Below are positions 4,389 through 35,133 of a stretch of DNA of 42,938 nt, piece after piece; the first letter of the stretch is position 1, and each line of letters opens with the position of its first letter. Both the position numbers and the translations under genes were made by a program. This stretch comes from Bacteroidales bacterium (GTDB taxonomy: Bacteria; Bacteroidota; Bacteroidia; Bacteroidales; VadinHA17), in contig JANTGF010000033.1 of NCBI GenBank assembly GCA_024763075.1, positions 1 through 42,938 of the forward strand, read 5' to 3'. Below the pieces are notes generated by a model. The model was not told the origin of the DNA. It saw only the letters and a list, made by a program, of their open reading frames with translations, and did no database searches.

Positions 4389-6854
4389 GTGAAACTACGG
4401 ATTGATGAAATAGTGAAAATAGTTGAGGGGAAACTTTTCGGAAAGGAGAACAGAAGTATTTCTCAGATTCTTACCGATAGCCGTTCCTATTGTATCCCAG
4501 GGGAAACCGCATTTTTTGCACTGAAAGGGCCCTTTCATAATGGTCATGAGTTTATCCAGCAACTTAAGGGAAAAGGGGTAAACTGTTTTATAGTAAGTGA
4601 AAAACCTGAAGAGAGTAGCATCGGGAAAGAAAACAGTTTTATCCTTGTGAACGATACCCTTTCCGCGCTTCAAAAGATTGCGGCTTTTAACAGAAAGTTG
4701 TTCAGGAAACCACTGATCTCAATTACCGGAAGTAATGGAAAGACTATTATTAAGGAATGGCTCTCTCAAATTTTATCCATTGATAATAAGGTGATTCGTA
4801 GCCCTAAGAGTTATAATTCACAAATTGGAGTACCTCTTTCCCTGTGGCTTTTGGATAATAATTTTGATTATGGAATTATTGAGGCAGGAATATCAATGCC
4901 AGGGGAAATGGAGAAGCTCGAAAAAATGATAAACCCGGATATTGGCATCATTTCCAACATTGGGGAGGCCCATCAGGAGAATTTTAGAAGTACGGAGGAA
5001 AAACTCAGAGAAAAGATCCGGCTTTTTATAAATACTGAGACCCTGATTTACTGCCGGGATCATCAGATCATCCATCAAATTATTGAAGAGGAATTTCAAA
5101 ATCAAAAAAAGAAAACGATCAACTGGTCATTTAAAGAAAATGCCGATCTTATCATCCTTTCTGTTGAAAGACACAAAAGAAAAACGGTATTGGAGGGTGA
5201 ATATGAAAAAAAGTTCTTCTCTTTTGAGATTCCGTTTACCGACCAGGCTTCCATTGAAAATGCTGTGCATGTATGGTTAACTTTAAGAGTTCTGAACATT
5301 CCGCAGGAAACTATCTCTGCCGGAATGAAAGCACTTGAACCAGTTGCAATGCGGTTGGAACTAAAAAAGGGAATCAACAATTGCACTATTATTAATGATA
5401 GTTATAATTCCGACCTGGCTTCTCTTTCCATTGCTCTGGATTTTTTGAATTTGCAACATCAGCAGGAAAAGAAAACGCTTATTCTTTCTGATATCTTTCA
5501 GAGTGGAAGAACAGAATCCGATCTTTATAACCGGGTTTCAGATATGATACGGGAGCAGAAGATTGATCAGTTTATTGGTATTGGAGAGGCCATATACCGT
5601 AATGCCGGTAATTTTCGTGGTAATAAGAAGTTCTTTAAATCAACCGGAGAGTTTCTGAAATATTTTTCCAGAAATCATTTCCGTAATGAGCTGATCCTTA
5701 TAAAAGGAGCCCGGAATTTTGAATTTGAAAAGATTTCTGAATTGCTTGAATTCCAGACACATGAGACTGTTCTGAAAATTAATCTGAATGCCATTGTGAA
5801 CAACTTGAATTATTTCAGGAGCCTGCTAAAACCGGAAACAAAAATTATGGCTATGGTAAAAGCTTTTGCCTATGGAAGTGGCTCAGTTGAACTGGCAAAC
5901 ATACTTGAATTTCATCATGCTGATTATCTGGCTGTTGCATTTGCAGATGAAGGAGTGGCTTTAAGGGAGGATGGAATCAGTCTGCCAATTATGGTAATGA
6001 GCCCAAAACCGGGGAATATGCATATACTTACCCGGTACTCACTTGAGCCTGAGATCTTCAACCTGAAAATTTTCCGGGCTTTTGTTAAGCATTTGAGAAA
6101 ATCCGGAATACATTCCTATCCAATCCACATTAAAATTGATACAGGGATGCATCGTCTGGGTTTTCTACCTTCAGAGATTGATGACCTGCTGGAAGAAATT
6201 GCAAATTCAAATGAGGTAGAGGTAAAAAGCGTTTTCTCACATCTTGCAGGAAGTGAAGATCCTGCTCTGGATACCTTTACCTTTCAGCAAATTGAGCAAA
6301 TTAAAAAAGTCAGAGAAAAGTTTAGCATAAGACTATCCGGTCATCACATTCTGTATCATATTTTAAATTCTGCCGGAATTGAACGTTTCCCGGAAGCACA
6401 ATTTGATATGGTCCGCCTGGGTATAGGATTGCACGGTATCACTCACCAAATATCCACGCCCCTGATACCCGTCAGCACCTTTACCAGTACCATTACTCAA
6501 ACACGTAGATTAGAGGTCGGTGAATCAGTTGGTTACGCACGAAAGGAAATGGCAACCACTAAAATGGAAATTGGTATAATCCCGGTTGGATATGCTGACG
6601 GACTAAACCGGAAACTGGGAAACAGGAATGGTTTTGTTTTTATAAATAATCATAGAGTTCCTGTAATTGGAGATATCTGTATGGATATGTGTATGGTGGA
6701 TATTACCGGTTTAAACATCTCCGAAGGTGATCAGGTGGAGATCTTTGGCAGGAATATCCGGATACAGGAAATCTCCTCTGTATTAGACACCATACCCTAC
6801 GAAGTTTTAACAGCTATTTCGGGGAGGGTAAAACGTGTTTATGTGCAGGAGTAA
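4389..6854 (+). CDS. murF-alr: Bifunctional MurF ligase / alanine racemase fusion
   Basis: This is a single 821-residue protein. The N-terminal half is MurF, which adds D-Ala-D-Ala to UDP-MurNAc-tripeptide: Mur ligase N-domain (about 1-100), ATP loop GSNGKT (114-119), central and C-terminal ligase domains to about 450, with NDSYNSD in the C-terminal part. The second half (about 455-821) is a PLP-dependent alanine racemase: PLP-binding Lys491 in MAMVKAFAYGSG, substrate-side Tyr716 in VGYARK, then IPVGYADG and ICMDMCMVD. One polypeptide thus makes D-Ala and couples the dipeptide to the wall precursor; the dipeptide-forming ddl lies at 20554. This fusion is established in Bacteroidota. Translation starts at GTG (4389-4391), since no ATG lies close to the family N-terminus. 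The ATP loop has Ile after GKT where Thr is usual. Confidence 0.95.
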   Translation: MKLRIDEIVKIVEGKLFGKENRSISQILTDSRSYCIPGETAFFALKGPFHNGHEFIQQLKGKGVNCFIVSEKPEESSIGKENSFILVNDTLSALQKIAAFNRKLFRKPLISITGSNGKTIIKEWLSQILSIDNKVIRSPKSYNSQIGVPLSLWLLDNNFDYGIIEAGISMPGEMEKLEKMINPDIGIISNIGEAHQENFRSTEEKLREKIRLFINTETLIYCRDHQIIHQIIEEEFQNQKKKTINWSFKENADLIILSVERHKRKTVLEGEYEKKFFSFEIPFTDQASIENAVHVWLTLRVLNIPQETISAGMKALEPVAMRLELKKGINNCTIINDSYNSDLASLSIALDFLNLQHQQEKKTLILSDIFQSGRTESDLYNRVSDMIREQKIDQFIGIGEAIYRNAGNFRGNKKFFKSTGEFLKYFSRNHFRNELILIKGARNFEFEKISELLEFQTHETVLKINLNAIVNNLNYFRSLLKPETKIMAMVKAFAYGSGSVELANILEFHHADYLAVAFADEGVALREDGISLPIMVMSPKPGNMHILTRYSLEPEIFNLKIFRAFVKHLRKSGIHSYPIHIKIDTGMHRLGFLPSEIDDLLEEIANSNEVEVKSVFSHLAGSEDPALDTFTFQQIEQIKKVREKFSIRLSGHHILYHILNSAGIERFPEAQFDMVRLGIGLHGITHQISTPLIPVSTFTSTITQTRRLEVGESVGYARKEMATTKMEIGIIPVGYADGLNRKLGNRNGFVFINNHRVPVIGDICMDMCMVDITGLNISEGDQVEIFGRNIRIQEISSVLDTIPYEVLTAISGRVKRVYVQE

Positions 6855-6918
6855 ATCCTTCTTCGCTATCACCTTCGCAATAACTACGGAGATCAAAGAA
6901 TGCTTCGAAGGATAAAAA

Positions 6919-6946
6919 GGCAGAAGGCAGAAGGCAGAAGGCAGAA
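6919..6946. repeat. 7-bp tandem repeat, four copies
   Basis: Four perfect copies of GGCAGAA followed by a partial fifth (GGA). It is intergenic, so copy-number change would not alter a reading frame. It is likely a slippage-prone simple repeat. Confidence 0.85.
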
Positions 6947-7170
6947 GGAAATCCACCTGTGCAAAGAAATCAAAAAACAATTAACAGGAAATCATAAGGA
7001 CGGAGGATAAAAACGGGAGAAGAGACCGAAAATGAATGTGTTGTGGATGACTATTGTTTGAAAGACTCCTTTTAGAATTACAGAAAAGTTATATGTGTGT
7101 GACTTTGGACAATTTTTATGATAGTCAAGGTAAGGTAGTGTTAAGTCGATTATATTATGACGTTACTATT

Positions 7171-28751: not shown

Positions 28752-31700
28752 TTATTGCTTCACAATCTGGAAAACTCTGGGTTTGTCTTCCATCATTACT
28801 TTAATGAAATACATTCCTGGTTTCAATTCCATTAAATCAAGTTGAAGAGCTTGTCCACTCGGTTGTATTCTGATGTTATAAGTTTTCCCAAAAGAATCAA
28901 ACACCATGATATCTTTTGTTAAGACATCATTATTATTTAGCTCAATGTAAATCACACCAGTTGTTGGATTTGGATAAACCTTAATTTTATCAACAGTTTC
29001 CAGAGTTTCTTCATTTGATGAAAGGGTCAGGCTCTTATTAAAATTGCATTTTTTGGAATATGAATTTGCACGTGTAGCCATAGACACTTTGTGACCTTCA
29101 CCAATACTTGATACAGTCCATGTTAATTCACCTCCATCAAAACTAACATTAAAACCTCCTCCACCGGAAACAAATAATTCAGGTTGGGGTTGGGATGTTA
29201 AGCCCCCGCCAATCATAATATTGTCAGCGCCATGTGGTACAAATACATCATAATCATTGTCATTCTTATATACGAAATGTGCAGTATAAGTTCCGTTTGC
29301 ATTTTCTGTAATACAATCGAGGCTTGGTTTTACAGCATGTGTACCAGGACCATATGGATTGACAAATAATTGTCCGTTTTCATTTGTAATGTTGTAATTG
29401 GTTGCGACAGCCGTAGGAACAATTGTATAAGTTCCAGCCAATCCACTATAATCGGGTTCAATAATAAAACCAGGACTTCCTCCAAACACAATTACTTCGT
29501 CATCTTTATTAACAAATCCTGAATATGAAAACTCAATAGTTGGCATTTCACCGGCATTAATAACCTGATCAATGGCTGAAACTGTAAGAGCTGCCTTGCC
29601 AACCATAATGTCCTGGGCTTCTTCAGGTGAAGCATTGTAATTTTCATTTCCTTCCTGATTTGCAATAATTGTAACTGCTCCTGCATTATGAATGGTCAGA
29701 GCATCTCCTGCAATACTTGCAACAGATGCATTACTGCTTGTAAAAGTTACTGGTAAATTACTGCTGGAAACAGCTGATAACGAGTAAGGACCATCCCCAT
29801 AGATAATTGTAGAGGGTAAAAGGTCAAAACTAATGGTTTGTTCAGCCTTATTTACCGTAAGAATCTGTATAATATCCATTGCAGGAAGATAGTTTTCATT
29901 TCCGGCCTGGCTTGCTCTAATGTTCACAATTCCTGCTGAAATAATAATTGCGGTACTTCCTTCAATTTTAACAATATTGGTATCACTACTTGTATATATG
30001 AGTCCTAAACTACTATTAGAAGTGGCAGTCAGATCAAATGGAACATCCCCAAATGTTTTTGCCTCAATAGGATTAAATGTAATGGTCTGTTCGGCTTTTG
30101 CCACCTTTAATTCACCATTTACTATAGCCGTATTGTAATTTACTAATGCTGATGAATTTGTAAGTGCAAATAAAGAATAATCATATTCACCGGATTCAAT
30201 AAAATCAGCCTTTTTTAGTTGAATCTCAGGTACAATTTCATGTAACCCGGCAGGAACAATTTCAGTTGTTGCATACGTATTATCCCCATTTTGGATACTA
30301 AAGCTTGGATAGCCTTCTGCCATTATGTTTTCCATTAATTCATCATACATCAGGCCTTCAACACTTACTGTATATTCAGGTTGTGCTTCCCCGTAGTTCA
30401 TGCTTTCATCCGGGGCTGTAAACCTGAGATTTGCCGGGAGTATTGTAAGTTCACCCAGGTTATAGGTAATCTCAAAGTTTCCGGACTCAAGCCTGGGTTC
30501 TCCTGTTCCCTCTTCATTCCCCGAAAGGTATGCCGCCGGAACTATGATATGTGTTCCAACAGTTGTGCCGGTAATTAAATTTATGGCATATAATTCAGGC
30601 ATTTCCCATTCACCCGGGTCTCCGGAGATTTCACCCCCATTATACTCGCCGTCTGTAACTACATCGGCTGCATCCAGAATAACTGCCAGATTATTCCAGC
30701 TTTCATCCTGTATATCCACCCCGTTTACCAATGGCCGGGCATTCACAAGAGGCCGGGCGTTTACGAGAGGCCTGGCATCTGCCACAGCAAAATAATTTAC
30801 AGAAACATCTGAATTCACTAATGGTCTTGCATTTACAAGCGCCCTGGCATTTACAAGTGGTCTGGCATTTACCAATGGCCGGGCATTTATCAATGAATAG
30901 CTGTTGTAATCACCGGATGATTCAACATTCTGATATTCAAATACAGATTCCTTTGCAATATCCACAATCCTGTTAACCAATGGTCTTGCATTTACCAATG
31001 GCCGGGCATTCACCAGTGCTCTGGCACTAACCAGAAACTGAAGACCGGCCAGGTCAGAATTCACCAGCGGCCGTGCATTCACCAGCGGCCGTGCATTCAC
31101 CAATGGACGGGCATCAACCAGGGCAATTTCTTCAGCAATATTGTACGTATGGGAGAGTACCAAAGAGTTCAGAAAAACTTCCGGTGAGGCAATATTGGAA
31201 GAATCAAATGCATAGGTAAACTCAACTGGGCCAATATCATCACCGTAGGTTATGCTCATATCATTTGGAGTAATCGTCAGGGGCATCTTTTCAATGTTCA
31301 GAAAGCCATCCTCAAATTCAAACTCAAATTTCTCATCCAGAGATATATCCAACTCGCTGTACATTGGATCCGTAGTATCCAAAATCAGGCTCAGGTTAAG
31401 TCTTGGCCTTATAATATAAGTACCTACATTACTTAAATCATTCACGTTTTCCCCCGGGCTGACCAAAACAGAAGCAATTCTTAGTTTCTCATCCTCAGTT
31501 AAGTCAGACTCGGTAAGAGGAATGTTGTCCACGGTTATTGTTGTAGTAAAAACCGGTAATTTTTCTCCAAATTTTTTCGTTTGGTTATGCGCTGTAATTT
31601 TAACATTCCTTTTCGTTATTCCATAAAAATATACTGCATTGGAAGTACCTCCATCCAGCAGGCTGCTTGAAATGGGCTCTGTAAAGGCTTCAATGGAGGG

Positions 31701-34070
31701 ATTCCCCAGAAATACAGGTATATCAGCAACAATTAAATTTTCATTCTGGTAAGTTACAGACTCATCTGGTAAAGCTTCTCCCCTGAATAATACCTGAGTA
31801 GATTCTGTGAGATAATCCCCGGTAACATTAACTGTTATGGGTTCTTCCCCCGGAATTGCACCGGAAGAATTTCCCAGTTCAATTAAAACAGGTGAAGGAG
31901 CAATATATGTAGAAATCGCAGCGTCAGCTTGTATAAAGCCATAACCCGTATTATAATCAAAACCCGGGTTTTCCATATCAATAGCTGTGGATGTTAACAA
32001 TGTTTTGATATCATCCGGGGAAAGTTGCTCGCCGTCCCAGTATTTTGCTCTTGCTTCAATTAATAATGCAGCTACTGCAGCTGCATGGGGGGCAGCAGCA
32101 GAAGTACCGTGAAAATTCAAGATTCCGTCTCCATCCGGATCAAACTCAGGTGTATTGGGACTTAAATTTACCGTTGTTTCCACCCCGTTTGGAGCAGTGA
32201 TTTCAGGTTTCTGCCGGGCAGTACCATTTACCGGTGTGCCACCAACCGAAGAAAATGAGGCAATGGTGGGAGGATCAACACCAAATTCCGGTGTATTGCT
32301 GTACAATACAGCACCAACTGCAATTGCTCCTTCAGCATTCGCCTGACCTACAATGGTTGAGGATCCAGTATTATACTCATTGATGGCCAGATCCCCACGG
32401 AAAACGATGTATTTAAAGTTTACATTATCTGAGCCTGAAGCCCTGGTAATCAGGATATTTGTTGAAGCACCACCTGGTCCAACCGTAAATGGTAAAACTT
32501 CAATAGGATAAGCTCCGGTATTTATAATATTGAATCCAAACAGGGTGGAACCGTTTTCATTGGAAAGATATATATCCAGATCGTTATTTGTTGTATATTG
32601 TGAAGCATTTGCATTATCTTCCCATTGTAACACAATCGTATAGGTGCCTTCAGTGAGTGAAATATTTTGAAAAATATCTCCCCCTCCAAAATTATGGGCT
32701 TCTCCCTGAATGCCACCTGGCGAAGGTGCAGGCAGGAAAGTGTTCTGATATGATTTATTGCTGTAATTACCTGCTGCAGAAATGTAGGTAACACCCTGAG
32801 CCTTTACCTGATCCACAGCCTGAGCTACAATACCATCCCGAAAAAATGGTTCGGTAATGTAGGTAATATCATCAACGATAACATCACTGCCTGCATCTTT
32901 AAGCGCAATAATTCCATTTGCAAAATCCTGTGCATTCAGAAAACCTGTATAAAATGCCAGCTCCGCTCCGGGTGCTATATCATGAACGATTTGCAACATG
33001 GCCCTTCCTTCATCTGAAAGTACGCCAAATGTTTGTGGGTAGTCTTTTAATACATGTACCGGTGTAACATTACCATCTAAATTGCCCGGGCCCGGAAGGT
33101 CACCGTTTGATACATCCGTGGCTGCTCCACCCAGGCTGTTGTAACTATCTGAAATGACTCCCACTTTTACACCTGCACCGCTTACATTAAAACCATTTCG
33201 TGCAAAATCGGATCGCATAGCTTTATCCCCGTCATTAAAACCAAGTCCGCTGTTTTTAGTAATCGCAGGATAAACGGGCCGGGCAAAACTTATAAATTGT
33301 GGAAAGTCATTTATCAGGATTAAATTTTCTATTGATAACCATCCTGTTATTGTTAATCCAGGCAAATCTTCACTTTCAATCTCCAGGCCAATAGATAATA
33401 GGGATGTCTTCATCCCTGCATATTGACCGGATAATGCAAGTACTTCAATTAAAACCTTTGTGCCATCTTTACTGATCTGGAATATGTCATCAGATTGAAA
33501 CTGTGAAGGATCATTAACAGCAATATAAGTATTGTACAAAGAATTCAGTTCAGCACTTAAAAGTGAGTTTTCTAATTTACCTCCGTCAGGTGGTGCATAA
33601 TAGGGAAATATATTTTCACCATCGCGGCAGTGAGATGAATTTATGCTTGCAGTAACTTCCTTCCATGCATCCGGATCCGAAGGATCCCTGTTTGGCAATA
33701 GCACACGCCACAATACTCTTTCTTTACTATCAAATTCAACAGAAAATACATTGTATTGACGACCTGACTTGAAATTTGGGTTTCCATTTGACCTGCCATT
33801 GTTTTTTTCTACGTAACTATCTTCCTGGGGTACTGTAATTTCATCGGAGTTTGGATTGTCATAACCGAAGTTTGCAATGTATTTTCCATTTCCTATGTAC
33901 TCAACACATTCAGTAATAATATTTATATCTTTTAATTTCTTTCCTTTCCCTTTCTTTTGACTGAAAGTTGATAAGGGGACCAAAAAAACCAGTAGTAAAA
34001 GAATAATCCTGTAATTGGGTTTAAATCCTGTAGATGATTGTAATCCCGGATTAAGTAAAAATAATTTCAT
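28752..34070 (-). CDS. Giant secreted S8/S53-like protease with MBG domains, ARPLVN repeats and T9SS sorting domain
   Basis: A 1772-residue exported protein. Order of parts: signal/anchor (about 20-37); beta-rich N-terminal part with a VEYIGNGKYIANFGYDNP repeat-type domain (about 55-200); subtilase-fold catalytic domain (about 295-700); a stretch of immunoglobulin-like and MBG-type domains (about 720-1590); a second NGTYTAHFVYKNDND domain near 1600; and a T9SS type A sorting domain (about 1693-1772: KVYPNPTTG ... GMYFIKV). Catalytic residues I can place are Asp308 (VISDSYN), Asn435 of the oxyanion hole (SAAGNYS) and Ser657 (FHGTSAAAPH). The usual HGTHVAG histidine is absent; the matching block reads LSDEGRAMLQIVHDIAPGAE with Glu354, as in the sedolisin (S53)-like subgroup. 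Residues 987-1116 carry 13 ARPLVN-type hexapeptides within one MBG domain. It is presumably secreted by T9SS and cell-attached. Confidence 0.9.
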   Translation of the reverse strand: MKLFLLNPGLQSSTGFKPNYRIILLLLVFLVPLSTFSQKKGKGKKLKDINIITECVEYIGNGKYIANFGYDNPNSDEITVPQEDSYVEKNNGRSNGNPNFKSGRQYNVFSVEFDSKERVLWRVLLPNRDPSDPDAWKEVTASINSSHCRDGENIFPYYAPPDGGKLENSLLSAELNSLYNTYIAVNDPSQFQSDDIFQISKDGTKVLIEVLALSGQYAGMKTSLLSIGLEIESEDLPGLTITGWLSIENLILINDFPQFISFARPVYPAITKNSGLGFNDGDKAMRSDFARNGFNVSGAGVKVGVISDSYNSLGGAATDVSNGDLPGPGNLDGNVTPVHVLKDYPQTFGVLSDEGRAMLQIVHDIAPGAELAFYTGFLNAQDFANGIIALKDAGSDVIVDDITYITEPFFRDGIVAQAVDQVKAQGVTYISAAGNYSNKSYQNTFLPAPSPGGIQGEAHNFGGGDIFQNISLTEGTYTIVLQWEDNANASQYTTNNDLDIYLSNENGSTLFGFNIINTGAYPIEVLPFTVGPGGASTNILITRASGSDNVNFKYIVFRGDLAINEYNTGSSTIVGQANAEGAIAVGAVLYSNTPEFGVDPPTIASFSSVGGTPVNGTARQKPEITAPNGVETTVNLSPNTPEFDPDGDGILNFHGTSAAAPHAAAVAALLIEARAKYWDGEQLSPDDIKTLLTSTAIDMENPGFDYNTGYGFIQADAAISTYIAPSPVLIELGNSSGAIPGEEPITVNVTGDYLTESTQVLFRGEALPDESVTYQNENLIVADIPVFLGNPSIEAFTEPISSSLLDGGTSNAVYFYGITKRNVKITAHNQTKKFGEKLPVFTTTITVDNIPLTESDLTEDEKLRIASVLVSPGENVNDLSNVGTYIIRPRLNLSLILDTTDPMYSELDISLDEKFEFEFEDGFLNIEKMPLTITPNDMSITYGDDIGPVEFTYAFDSSNIASPEVFLNSLVLSHTYNIAEEIALVDARPLVNARPLVNARPLVNSDLAGLQFLVSARALVNARPLVNARPLVNRIVDIAKESVFEYQNVESSGDYNSYSLINARPLVNARPLVNARALVNARPLVNSDVSVNYFAVADARPLVNARPLVNARPLVNGVDIQDESWNNLAVILDAADVVTDGEYNGGEISGDPGEWEMPELYAINLITGTTVGTHIIVPAAYLSGNEEGTGEPRLESGNFEITYNLGELTILPANLRFTAPDESMNYGEAQPEYTVSVEGLMYDELMENIMAEGYPSFSIQNGDNTYATTEIVPAGLHEIVPEIQLKKADFIESGEYDYSLFALTNSSALVNYNTAIVNGELKVAKAEQTITFNPIEAKTFGDVPFDLTATSNSSLGLIYTSSDTNIVKIEGSTAIIISAGIVNIRASQAGNENYLPAMDIIQILTVNKAEQTISFDLLPSTIIYGDGPYSLSAVSSSNLPVTFTSSNASVASIAGDALTIHNAGAVTIIANQEGNENYNASPEEAQDIMVGKAALTVSAIDQVINAGEMPTIEFSYSGFVNKDDEVIVFGGSPGFIIEPDYSGLAGTYTIVPTAVATNYNITNENGQLFVNPYGPGTHAVKPSLDCITENANGTYTAHFVYKNDNDYDVFVPHGADNIMIGGGLTSQPQPELFVSGGGGFNVSFDGGELTWTVSSIGEGHKVSMATRANSYSKKCNFNKSLTLSSNEETLETVDKIKVYPNPTTGVIYIELNNNDVLTKDIMVFDSFGKTYNIRIQPSGQALQLDLMELKPGMYFIKVMMEDKPRVFQIVKQ
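30723..31112 (-). repeat. 18-bp coding repeat: 13 copies of the ARPLVN/ARALVN hexapeptide in four clusters
   Basis: Clusters of 3, 3, 4 and 3 units are separated by short unique spacers (SDLAGLQFLV, RIVDIAKESV..., SDVSVNYFAVAD). Each unit is 18 bp, so gain or loss keeps the reading frame. The first cluster (31059-31112) and last (30723-30776) are exactly three units each. Units differ at third codon positions, so the array is not freshly expanded. Confidence 0.9.
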
Positions 34071-34437: not shown

Positions 34438-35133
34438 ATGTTGACAAAACCCTCCAGGTGCCAAAGTTGTGTAGATTGTGATTTGAAGTCGCCTTTGTTT
34501 AATTTACTTTCGCATAAGGAACTTCAATATCTGAATTCGGACAGGTATGAAGTTGAGTTTAGCGCGGGCGACAGTATTTTCAAACAGGGTTCTGCTGTAA
34601 ACAATATATTATCCCTGACATCAGGGAAAGTAAAACTTTATCTTGAGGGAATTGCGCAACAGAGTTTAATTTTTAAAATTTCCAGACAATGGGACTTGTT
34701 GGGTGGCCCGGGTTTATTTATTGATAACCGGCACCATTGTTCTGCCCGGGCAATTGAAGATGCCAGGATTTGTTTTATTAATCATACAAAATTCAGGGAG
34801 ATTCTGTGTCAAAACAAGGAGTTCAGTAATTTATTCTGGAAACAGATGAACCAGGATATAGTTCACCTTTCCAACCGGTTTTTAAGTAACTCACAGAAAC
34901 ACATGCATGGCCGGATGGCGGATTCCCTGATTTATCTTTCTGAGGTATTCCATGATTCAGATAACGGAATACTGATTGGCAAAAAAGATATTGCAGAGCT
35001 CTCCGGGATGACCAGGGATAGTGCAGTGAGGGTTCTCAAAAGGTTTTCTACTGACAAGATACTGGAAGTGGAGAATAACTTCGTTAAAATTATAAATTAT
35101 TCCAAACTGGAAGAACTTTCGAGAGTTGGATAA
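34438..35133 (+). CDS. Crp/Fnr-family transcriptional regulator with N-terminal cysteine cluster
   Basis: This 231-residue regulator has a beta-roll sensor domain (about 20-140; FSAGDSIFKQGSAVNNILSLTSG) and a C-terminal winged helix (about 150-225; IGKKDIAELSGMTRDSAVRVLKRF). Residues 8, 11 and 14 are Cys (RCQSCVDCD), and further Cys residues lie in the sensor domain (HHCSARA, ARICF, ILCQN). E. coli FNR holds its [4Fe-4S] cluster with three N-terminal and one internal Cys, so an oxygen- or NO-sensing Fe-S cluster is possible here, but the spacing differs. It is divergent from the protease gene, sharing a 367-base spacer, which makes that gene a candidate target. It converges on the TPR gene with 8 bases between stops. 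Confidence 0.88.
   Translation: MLTKPSRCQSCVDCDLKSPLFNLLSHKELQYLNSDRYEVEFSAGDSIFKQGSAVNNILSLTSGKVKLYLEGIAQQSLIFKISRQWDLLGGPGLFIDNRHHCSARAIEDARICFINHTKFREILCQNKEFSNLFWKQMNQDIVHLSNRFLSNSQKHMHGRMADSLIYLSEVFHDSDNGILIGKKDIAELSGMTRDSAVRVLKRFSTDKILEVENNFVKIINYSKLEELSRVG

Follow-up and report, generated by a model that had tools for sequence, protein, structure and literature searches.

A tandem hexapeptide array inserted in an MBG-type domain of putatively T9SS-exported S8-like proteases

The protein considered here, encoded in a 42,938-nucleotide stretch of DNA from a Bacteroidales bacterium (the whole stretch is hereafter called the window), can be compared with several described systems. T9SS-exported S8 (subtilase) peptidases share with it the PF00082 domain, the sorting domain and the presence of SprA in the genome, but it differs from them by a Glu at the place of the His motif and by an array of short tandem repeat units (words), which S8 relatives from two other genomes (G249 and G387) lack. 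The hexapeptide repeats of left-handed beta-helix proteins (PF00132) resemble the array in their six-residue period and in the pattern small-x-aliphatic-turn, whereas the array rarely matches their strict consensus, has units of five or eight residues in some homologues and carries no signal of a three-unit (lag-3) super-period. Pentapeptide-repeat proteins (PF00805) have the consensus A(D/N)LxX, which a five-residue ANLSL repeat in one homologue (L156) resembles; PF00805 is not listed by Pfam for this homologue at E<=0.01. MBG_2 (PF18676) figures as the stalk repeat of CdrA in a passage of the paper on Periscope proteins (PMC8201768). The two ends of the array domain match both ends of this 72-position profile, weakly, and full MBG_2 domains occur in the same proteins, but here the MBG_2 domain is interrupted by words together with conserved spacers, and the array domains of our 36-member set measure 186-557 aa. 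Periscope proteins and other high-identity tandem-repeat (VNTR) adhesins, finally, are like the array protein in being exported and in differing in repeat number between homologues; whereas repeat-number variation in Periscope proteins is, in a passage of the same paper (PMC8201768), tied to high DNA identity, the DNA of most array units is near the random level of identity. We regard the array as a repeat inserted into T9SS proteases that carry MBG domains, unusual in its evolutionary signature, and it is apparently undescribed in the literature searched: no description of the array or its repeat was recognised in full-text searches, and a search for the literal repeat words returned, by title, no paper on bacterial repeats.

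The host gene and the features of its product are as follows (window positions with strand, or residues of the protein).

28752..34070 (-), host gene, a single open frame encoding 1772 aa with a signal-like N-terminus, an S8-like protease, MBG domains and a T9SS type A sorting domain
31911..33263 (-), region of the protease that served as query (residues 270-720), with Asp in VGVISDSYN, Glu in DEGRAM and Ser in GTSAAAPH
Residues 539-711, PF00082 (Peptidase_S8), Pfam match
Three stretches of the 1772-aa protein, PF18676 (MBG_2), Pfam match
30432..31289 (-), MBG-type domain containing the array, residues 928-1213, delimited by profile, alignments and AF2
Residues 1698-1762, PF18962, Pfam match
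Residues 1698-1772, TIGR04183, T9SS type A sorting domain, NCBIfam match

The signal-like N-terminal segment was read from the sequence. Scanned as a whole, the protein passes the Pfam cut-offs for PF00082 (75.4 bits versus 21.8, placing it within the S8 profile), PF18676 and PF18962, and it scores 40.1 bits against the cut-off of 23 for TIGR04183. The source genome (G000) encodes SprA, a T9SS protein (SprA_N, 634.5 bits), and together with the sorting domain this makes the product a putative T9SS cargo. The His motif of S8 peptidases is HGTH. In the window protein an Asp (VISDSY) and a Ser (GTSAAAP) were found, but DEGRAM replaces the His motif and the Asp-His-Ser triad is absent, with the catalytic residues assigned by what we take to be the S8 and S53 motifs. 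DEGRAM is common to all 15 family members that reach that far (14 by regular expression, L076 by eye), and L076 has an Asn (VISNSY) at the place of the Asp. Judging from these motifs, the domain may represent a sedolisin-like enzyme (Asp-Glu-Ser) that uses an S8 scaffold.

The initial annotation, made from the sequence of the window, had reported 13 ARPLVN/ARALVN units in four clusters, and a regular-expression count bears this out: 13 AR[PA]LVN units (11 ARPLVN and two ARALVN) lie at 30723-31112 (-), residues 987-1116, in clusters of three, three, four and three units, arranged as listed below.

31059..31112 (-), cluster 1: ARPLVN three times, residues 987-1004, with the same DNA sequence in units 2 and 3
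31026..31058 (-), spacer 1: SDLAGLQFLVS, a conserved landmark (xDLxxLxFLVS in close relatives)
30972..31025 (-), cluster 2: ARALVN, ARPLVN, ARPLVN
30885..30971 (-), spacer 2: RIVDIAKESVFEYQ...SYSLIN, a conserved landmark (hVDhAxxSIFxYQ in close relatives)
30813..30884 (-), cluster 3: ARPLVN, ARPLVN, ARALVN, ARPLVN
30777..30812 (-), spacer 3: SDVSVNYFAVAD, not present in 11 aligned close relatives
30723..30776 (-), cluster 4: ARPLVN three times, residues 1099-1116

Inspection by eye shows a degenerate unit in front of every cluster (EIALVD, LQFLVS, SYSLIN and YFAVAD) and a wider form of spacer 1, xFhVS. The landmark assignments rest on alignments; in some rows the landmark regular expressions also matched array units. 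When the window protein was shuffled 2000 times, the maximum for any 6-mer was two copies. Tandem Repeats Finder resolves the DNA of the array into five short 18-bp arrays (2.4-2.8 copies, 75-100% matches), and a search of the organism's own genome with the array matched at one place only. Residues 981-1117 carry 14 Arg and one Lys versus six Asp and four Glu.

The array had likewise been placed, from the sequence, in an MBG domain of a T9SS-secreted protease, and the Pfam and NCBIfam matches, which give an S8-like protease and a T9SS sorting domain, support this, as does SprA in the genome. The start of the window's array domain corresponds to MBG_2 profile positions 1-22 with 16 bits, below the gathering cut-off of 25; the array domains of 13 of 24 members match this profile at E<=0.1. 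It is the full MBG_2 domains elsewhere in the window protein, present also in homologues, that carry the whole protein over the cut-off. In L114 and L137 the C-terminal piece of the array domain matches MBG_2 positions 43-72 and 39-72, respectively, each time below the cut-off, and the pieces from the window and L147 gave no MBG_2 match. From the matched start of the domain and the matched ends in these siblings it follows that the insert sits at about profile positions 22-40. The 24 aligned sequences share this domain, and its MBG ends are conserved in them.

A search of 60 relatives with the window domain matched only its own genome, the 59 others giving no match, and alignment profiles were needed. 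With these, the array domain was found in 5 of the 395 genomes of a phylum sample, in 7 of the 295 of an order sample and, in three families, in 1 of 2, 5 of 151 and 11 of 150 genomes, the own or centre genome being counted each time. When the species collection was scanned with a degenerate DNA pattern for three [LF]VN units spaced by six residues, it gave at least 117 stretches, among which about 25 proteins were judged to have the same insert; stretches judged to be chance, out of frame or of other families were dropped, and record titles were seen for 80 of the loci. Array proteins of known origin among the matches listed come from Bacteroidota and one Chlorobiota MAG. The family is sparse and patchy in its distribution. 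Our 36-member set comprises the members with a usable domain; loci L149-L174 stand outside it except L156 and L157, and the partial members L012, L037, L052, L058, L065, L070, L091, L092 and L119 were left out. The search for the hexapeptide in other proteins, suggested in the initial annotation, thus led to arrays of the same type at the same MBG position in homologues. One genome (G893) encodes two paralogous array proteins (L147 and L157), 72% identical in the array domain.

The array keeps constant company with the protease. A catalytic-serine motif was found by regular expression 246-329 residues upstream of the array domain in 33 of the 36 members, and L054 and L062, negative by this expression, have PF00082; an S8 domain is accordingly present upstream in 35 members, the remaining one (L148) being cut, with 46 residues upstream only. 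All ten long ORFs scanned have PF00082 and six of them the sorting domain, the other four running off their loci. In the opposite direction, the protease region was matched at E<=1e-20 in 17 of the 395 phylum-sample genomes, five of which have the array, on the same contigs. The relative in G249 (49% identity in the protease) is a whole frame of 1891 aa without the array, and in G387 (47% identity) other domains adjoin the protease and there is no array profile match. The protease therefore does not need the array, which is an addition in one branch. Within the window's own family, a protease with 60% identity (L177 in G1024) stands on a contig that ends within the gene, short of where an array would begin.

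Each array protein has its own favoured words (ARPLVN, GIPLVN, GISLVN, ATALVN, GFNLVN, TRGLVN, GKGLVN, GLSVIN, LRGIVS and others). The unit is five, six or eight residues long, a few homologues having eight-residue (GRAVSIVN, GQATALVN) or five-residue (LSLAN) words, and both copy number and cluster size vary between homologues. The arrays are only partly uniform: on average over 31 domains, 0.55 of the tandem units are the commonest word, the extremes being 14 of 15 in L073 and, at the low end, 4 of 17 in L017, 3 of 19 in L148 and 2 of 13 in L122. For the 29 members with hexapeptide units (465 in all), the first, second and third positions of the unit have identities of 0.67, 0.53 and 0.59 within proteins versus 0.37, 0.15 and 0.22 between them. 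In the window's subfamily (148 units) the contrast at position 2 is small (0.49 within versus 0.44 between), because the commonest word has Arg or Lys there in all 12 of its 12 proteins. On a tree inferred from the protein without the array (35 rows, L148 left out, a quick method with SH-aLRT support only), the side-chain class at position 2 of the commonest word changes four times, the least possible being two and the mean of shuffled assignments 15.7, with 0 of 200 shuffles as low; this count includes five rows with five- or eight-residue units classed by hand and mixed arrays classed by their commonest word. Unit length changes three times on the same tree and the exact word 25 times. L076, with its hydrophobic word GIPLVN, sits among basic-word proteins. 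The position-2 class is old and the exact word drifts; the array is old and mostly vertically inherited, its words being more alike within than between proteins. Giant array proteins (L201, L202 and L203) with ORFs of 3240-3806 aa within their stretches contain 57-80 tandem ALVD or SLVN words. Hexapeptide arrays of the GNGLVN/GTGLVN type occur in L035 (2087-2419), L080 (1484-1822) and L110 (5778-6623); L035 and L080 come from archaeal MAGs, in which a hydrophobic segment stands after the array. These are LVN-type words in an unrelated context.

Uniformity of short tandem repeats in proteins often stems from recent duplication of DNA. Twenty-four proteins have five or more copies of one word, and in these the identical words are mismatched at 3.43 of their 6 codons on average, versus 3.87 for codons drawn independently from the rest of the gene; for the window the values are 3.62 and 3.92 (P 0.12). 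Mismatches fall below expectation at P<0.05 in 8 of the 24, five of these at P<=0.0025. Codon identity is 0.41 between neighbours and 0.37-0.46 over lags 1-6, with no peak at lag 1 (504 units in runs of at least five), and in two giant members the 32 copies of GLSLVN have 30 and 31 DNA spellings. For the 13 window units pS is 0.744 and pN 0.052, the low pN being conditional on the choice of these units by word; when the four degenerate units are counted as well, pS is 0.728 and pN 0.257. Of 358 neighbouring pairs across the 36 domains, 8 are DNA-identical; these belong to five proteins, L147 alone having four, and the other 350 pairs differ. Since the codons of identical words are near random, most copies are old and their likeness is kept at the protein level. 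Indeed, much of the uniformity of the arrays persists despite near-random DNA divergence, so that selection seems to keep the copies alike.

One of the nine neighbouring pairs among the 13 window units is DNA-identical (residues 993-1004, units at 993 and 999; P 0.008 under independent codons), and it lies in cluster 1, which is one unit longer than in aligned relatives. Single units hence still duplicate in frame, one recent duplication in the window array is likely, and the earlier suggestion that the 18-bp unit can expand in frame finds support. Codon divergence in the array was like that of the rest of the gene in five of seven ortholog pairs and above the matched expectation in two (P 0.004 and 0.028). 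The idea of faster synonymous change in arrays was dropped, as five of the seven pairs do not exceed expectation and both pairs that do involve L071.

Our preferred interpretation, tentative and with a probability of roughly 0.4, sees in the array a beta-rich repeat scaffold under selection, set into a single loop of an MBG domain in one branch of T9SS-exported S8-like proteases. Each word would form a short beta-strand and a tight Asn-(Gly/Ala) turn, and the words would pack on one another, like side chains over like; such packing would preserve the likeness of the words in any one protein and let the set drift from protein to protein. Position 2 of the unit would build an exposed ladder, a displayed face that is basic here (Arg/Lys in the commonest word of the window's relatives) and Ile/Leu/Val/Phe or Thr elsewhere, and the ladder might hold or space the protease against a surface polymer or another copy. 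Derivation of the words from the G-F/L-V-N-G-D turn of the MBG loop is a guess suggested by the insertion point at MBG_2 positions of about 22-40. The scaffold interpretation is supported by the spacer landmarks, which are conserved within subfamilies, and by the position-2 class and unit length, which follow phylogeny. The low AF2 confidence for the array, the partial uniformity, the DNA memory of copies, the small position-2 contrast in the window's subfamily and the place of L076 on the tree count against it, and unit lengths of 5, 6 and 8 combined with single-unit copy changes make a poor fit to a fixed solenoid.

In the AF2 model of the window domain, pLDDT is 88-94 in domain residues 1-50 and 82-91 in parts of the C-terminal half, and 25-57 by ten-residue block in the array, reaching 71 only around spacer 1; the array of L147 has 22-42, except 55 at one spacer. 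Structure prediction, which the initial annotation had recommended in view of a possible solenoid or repeated binding site, thus models the MBG start well and gives a low-confidence array in which the two ideas are not distinguished. The annotation had set against its own idea a disordered prediction combined with random copy number and sequence in relatives; of these, the low-confidence model is there, but the sequence of the relatives is far from random. Foldseek with the window model found nothing in the PDB at E<=0.001, only noise, PDB sequences gave no match to the array profile at E<=1, and no Pfam or NCBIfam family accounts for the window array. Pfam matches to Pam3_gp18, LED_rpt and others were taken as compositional (Pam3_gp18 is above its cut-off in L137, L071 and L076), and PDB chain 9e5c (E 2e-9) was set aside, the alignment being one of low-complexity repeats.

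Somewhat unlikely, in our judgement, is that the array is a series of linear recognition motifs, each word being the target of a single partner (the protein's own protease or that of a sister, to which it would be a pseudosubstrate or decoy, a receptor or a polyanion) and the copies having to fit the specificity of that partner and drifting with it. The protease paired with the array in 35 of 36 members (the other being cut), the greater likeness of words within than between proteins and the poor structure of the array in AF2 models all suit such a role; S8 relatives without the array (G249 and G387) do not, and the conserved spacers would be unneeded for the simple display of motifs. That the array is a flexible or semi-ordered spacer, in which composition rather than the exact words matters and occasional re-amplification is followed by purifying selection on composition, we consider unlikely. 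Low AF2 confidence, copy numbers and cluster sizes varying between homologues, the many arrays that are mixtures of words and the ongoing duplication attested by the DNA-identical pair agree with a spacer, but it leaves unexplained the conserved landmarks between clusters, the stability of position-2 class and unit length on the tree, and a pN below pS even with the degenerate units (0.257 versus 0.728). Packing, a shared partner or composition are three reasons why repeats may stay alike, and the array offers a natural test of them in a sparse family of exported proteases marked by an integral array that can reach 80 tandem units.

We also consider, as unlikely, a more general rule under which words of 5-8 residues and of the right type are allowed provided that the copies in one molecule match one another in type. 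If true, such self-likeness would define either a homotypic self-packing domain or a recognition word private to a protease and the tail of the same protein; the word set would drift between species, each lineage obtaining its own self-compatible surface word.

A left-handed beta-helix of the hexapeptide-transferase type, with three hexapeptides per coil, was favoured at first and then dropped on account of the unit lengths, the missing lag-3 signal and the rarity of the strict consensus, and it now appears very improbable. When rotated, the window unit resembles what we take to be the consensus, [STAV]-x-[LIV]-[GAED]-x-x, and admitting Asn at the GAED place brings 278 of 472 units into agreement with it; L137 has a weak phmmer match (E 0.31) to YdcK (2f9c), presumably a beta-helix. 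The strict form, [LIV]-[GAED]-x2-[STAV]-x, is nevertheless matched by just 8 of 472 units, and in the window by 1 of 16, Hexapep is absent from the Pfam families listed for the array domains, no excess of similarity was found at lag 3 in 504 units, and homologues have units of 5 and 8. Least probable of all is neutral or recent slippage expansion of the 18-bp unit as a VNTR, possibly phase-variable, for which the unit size, the in-frame copy differences between homologues and the few DNA-identical neighbours (one window pair, P 0.008; 8 of 358 in all) might speak, but which is disfavoured as the main source of the array by the 350 differing pairs, by near-random codons among identical words with no lag-1 peak and by the same position of the array in distant families.

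Two minor observations concern other parts of the window. A gene at 34438-35133 (+), divergent from the protease gene, encodes a Crp/Fnr-like regulator, and Tandem Repeats Finder detected a perfect 7-bp tandem repeat, AAGGCAG, with 4.6 copies at 6917-6948, shortly past a murF-alr-like fusion gene (4389-6854); both gene names were read from the sequence.
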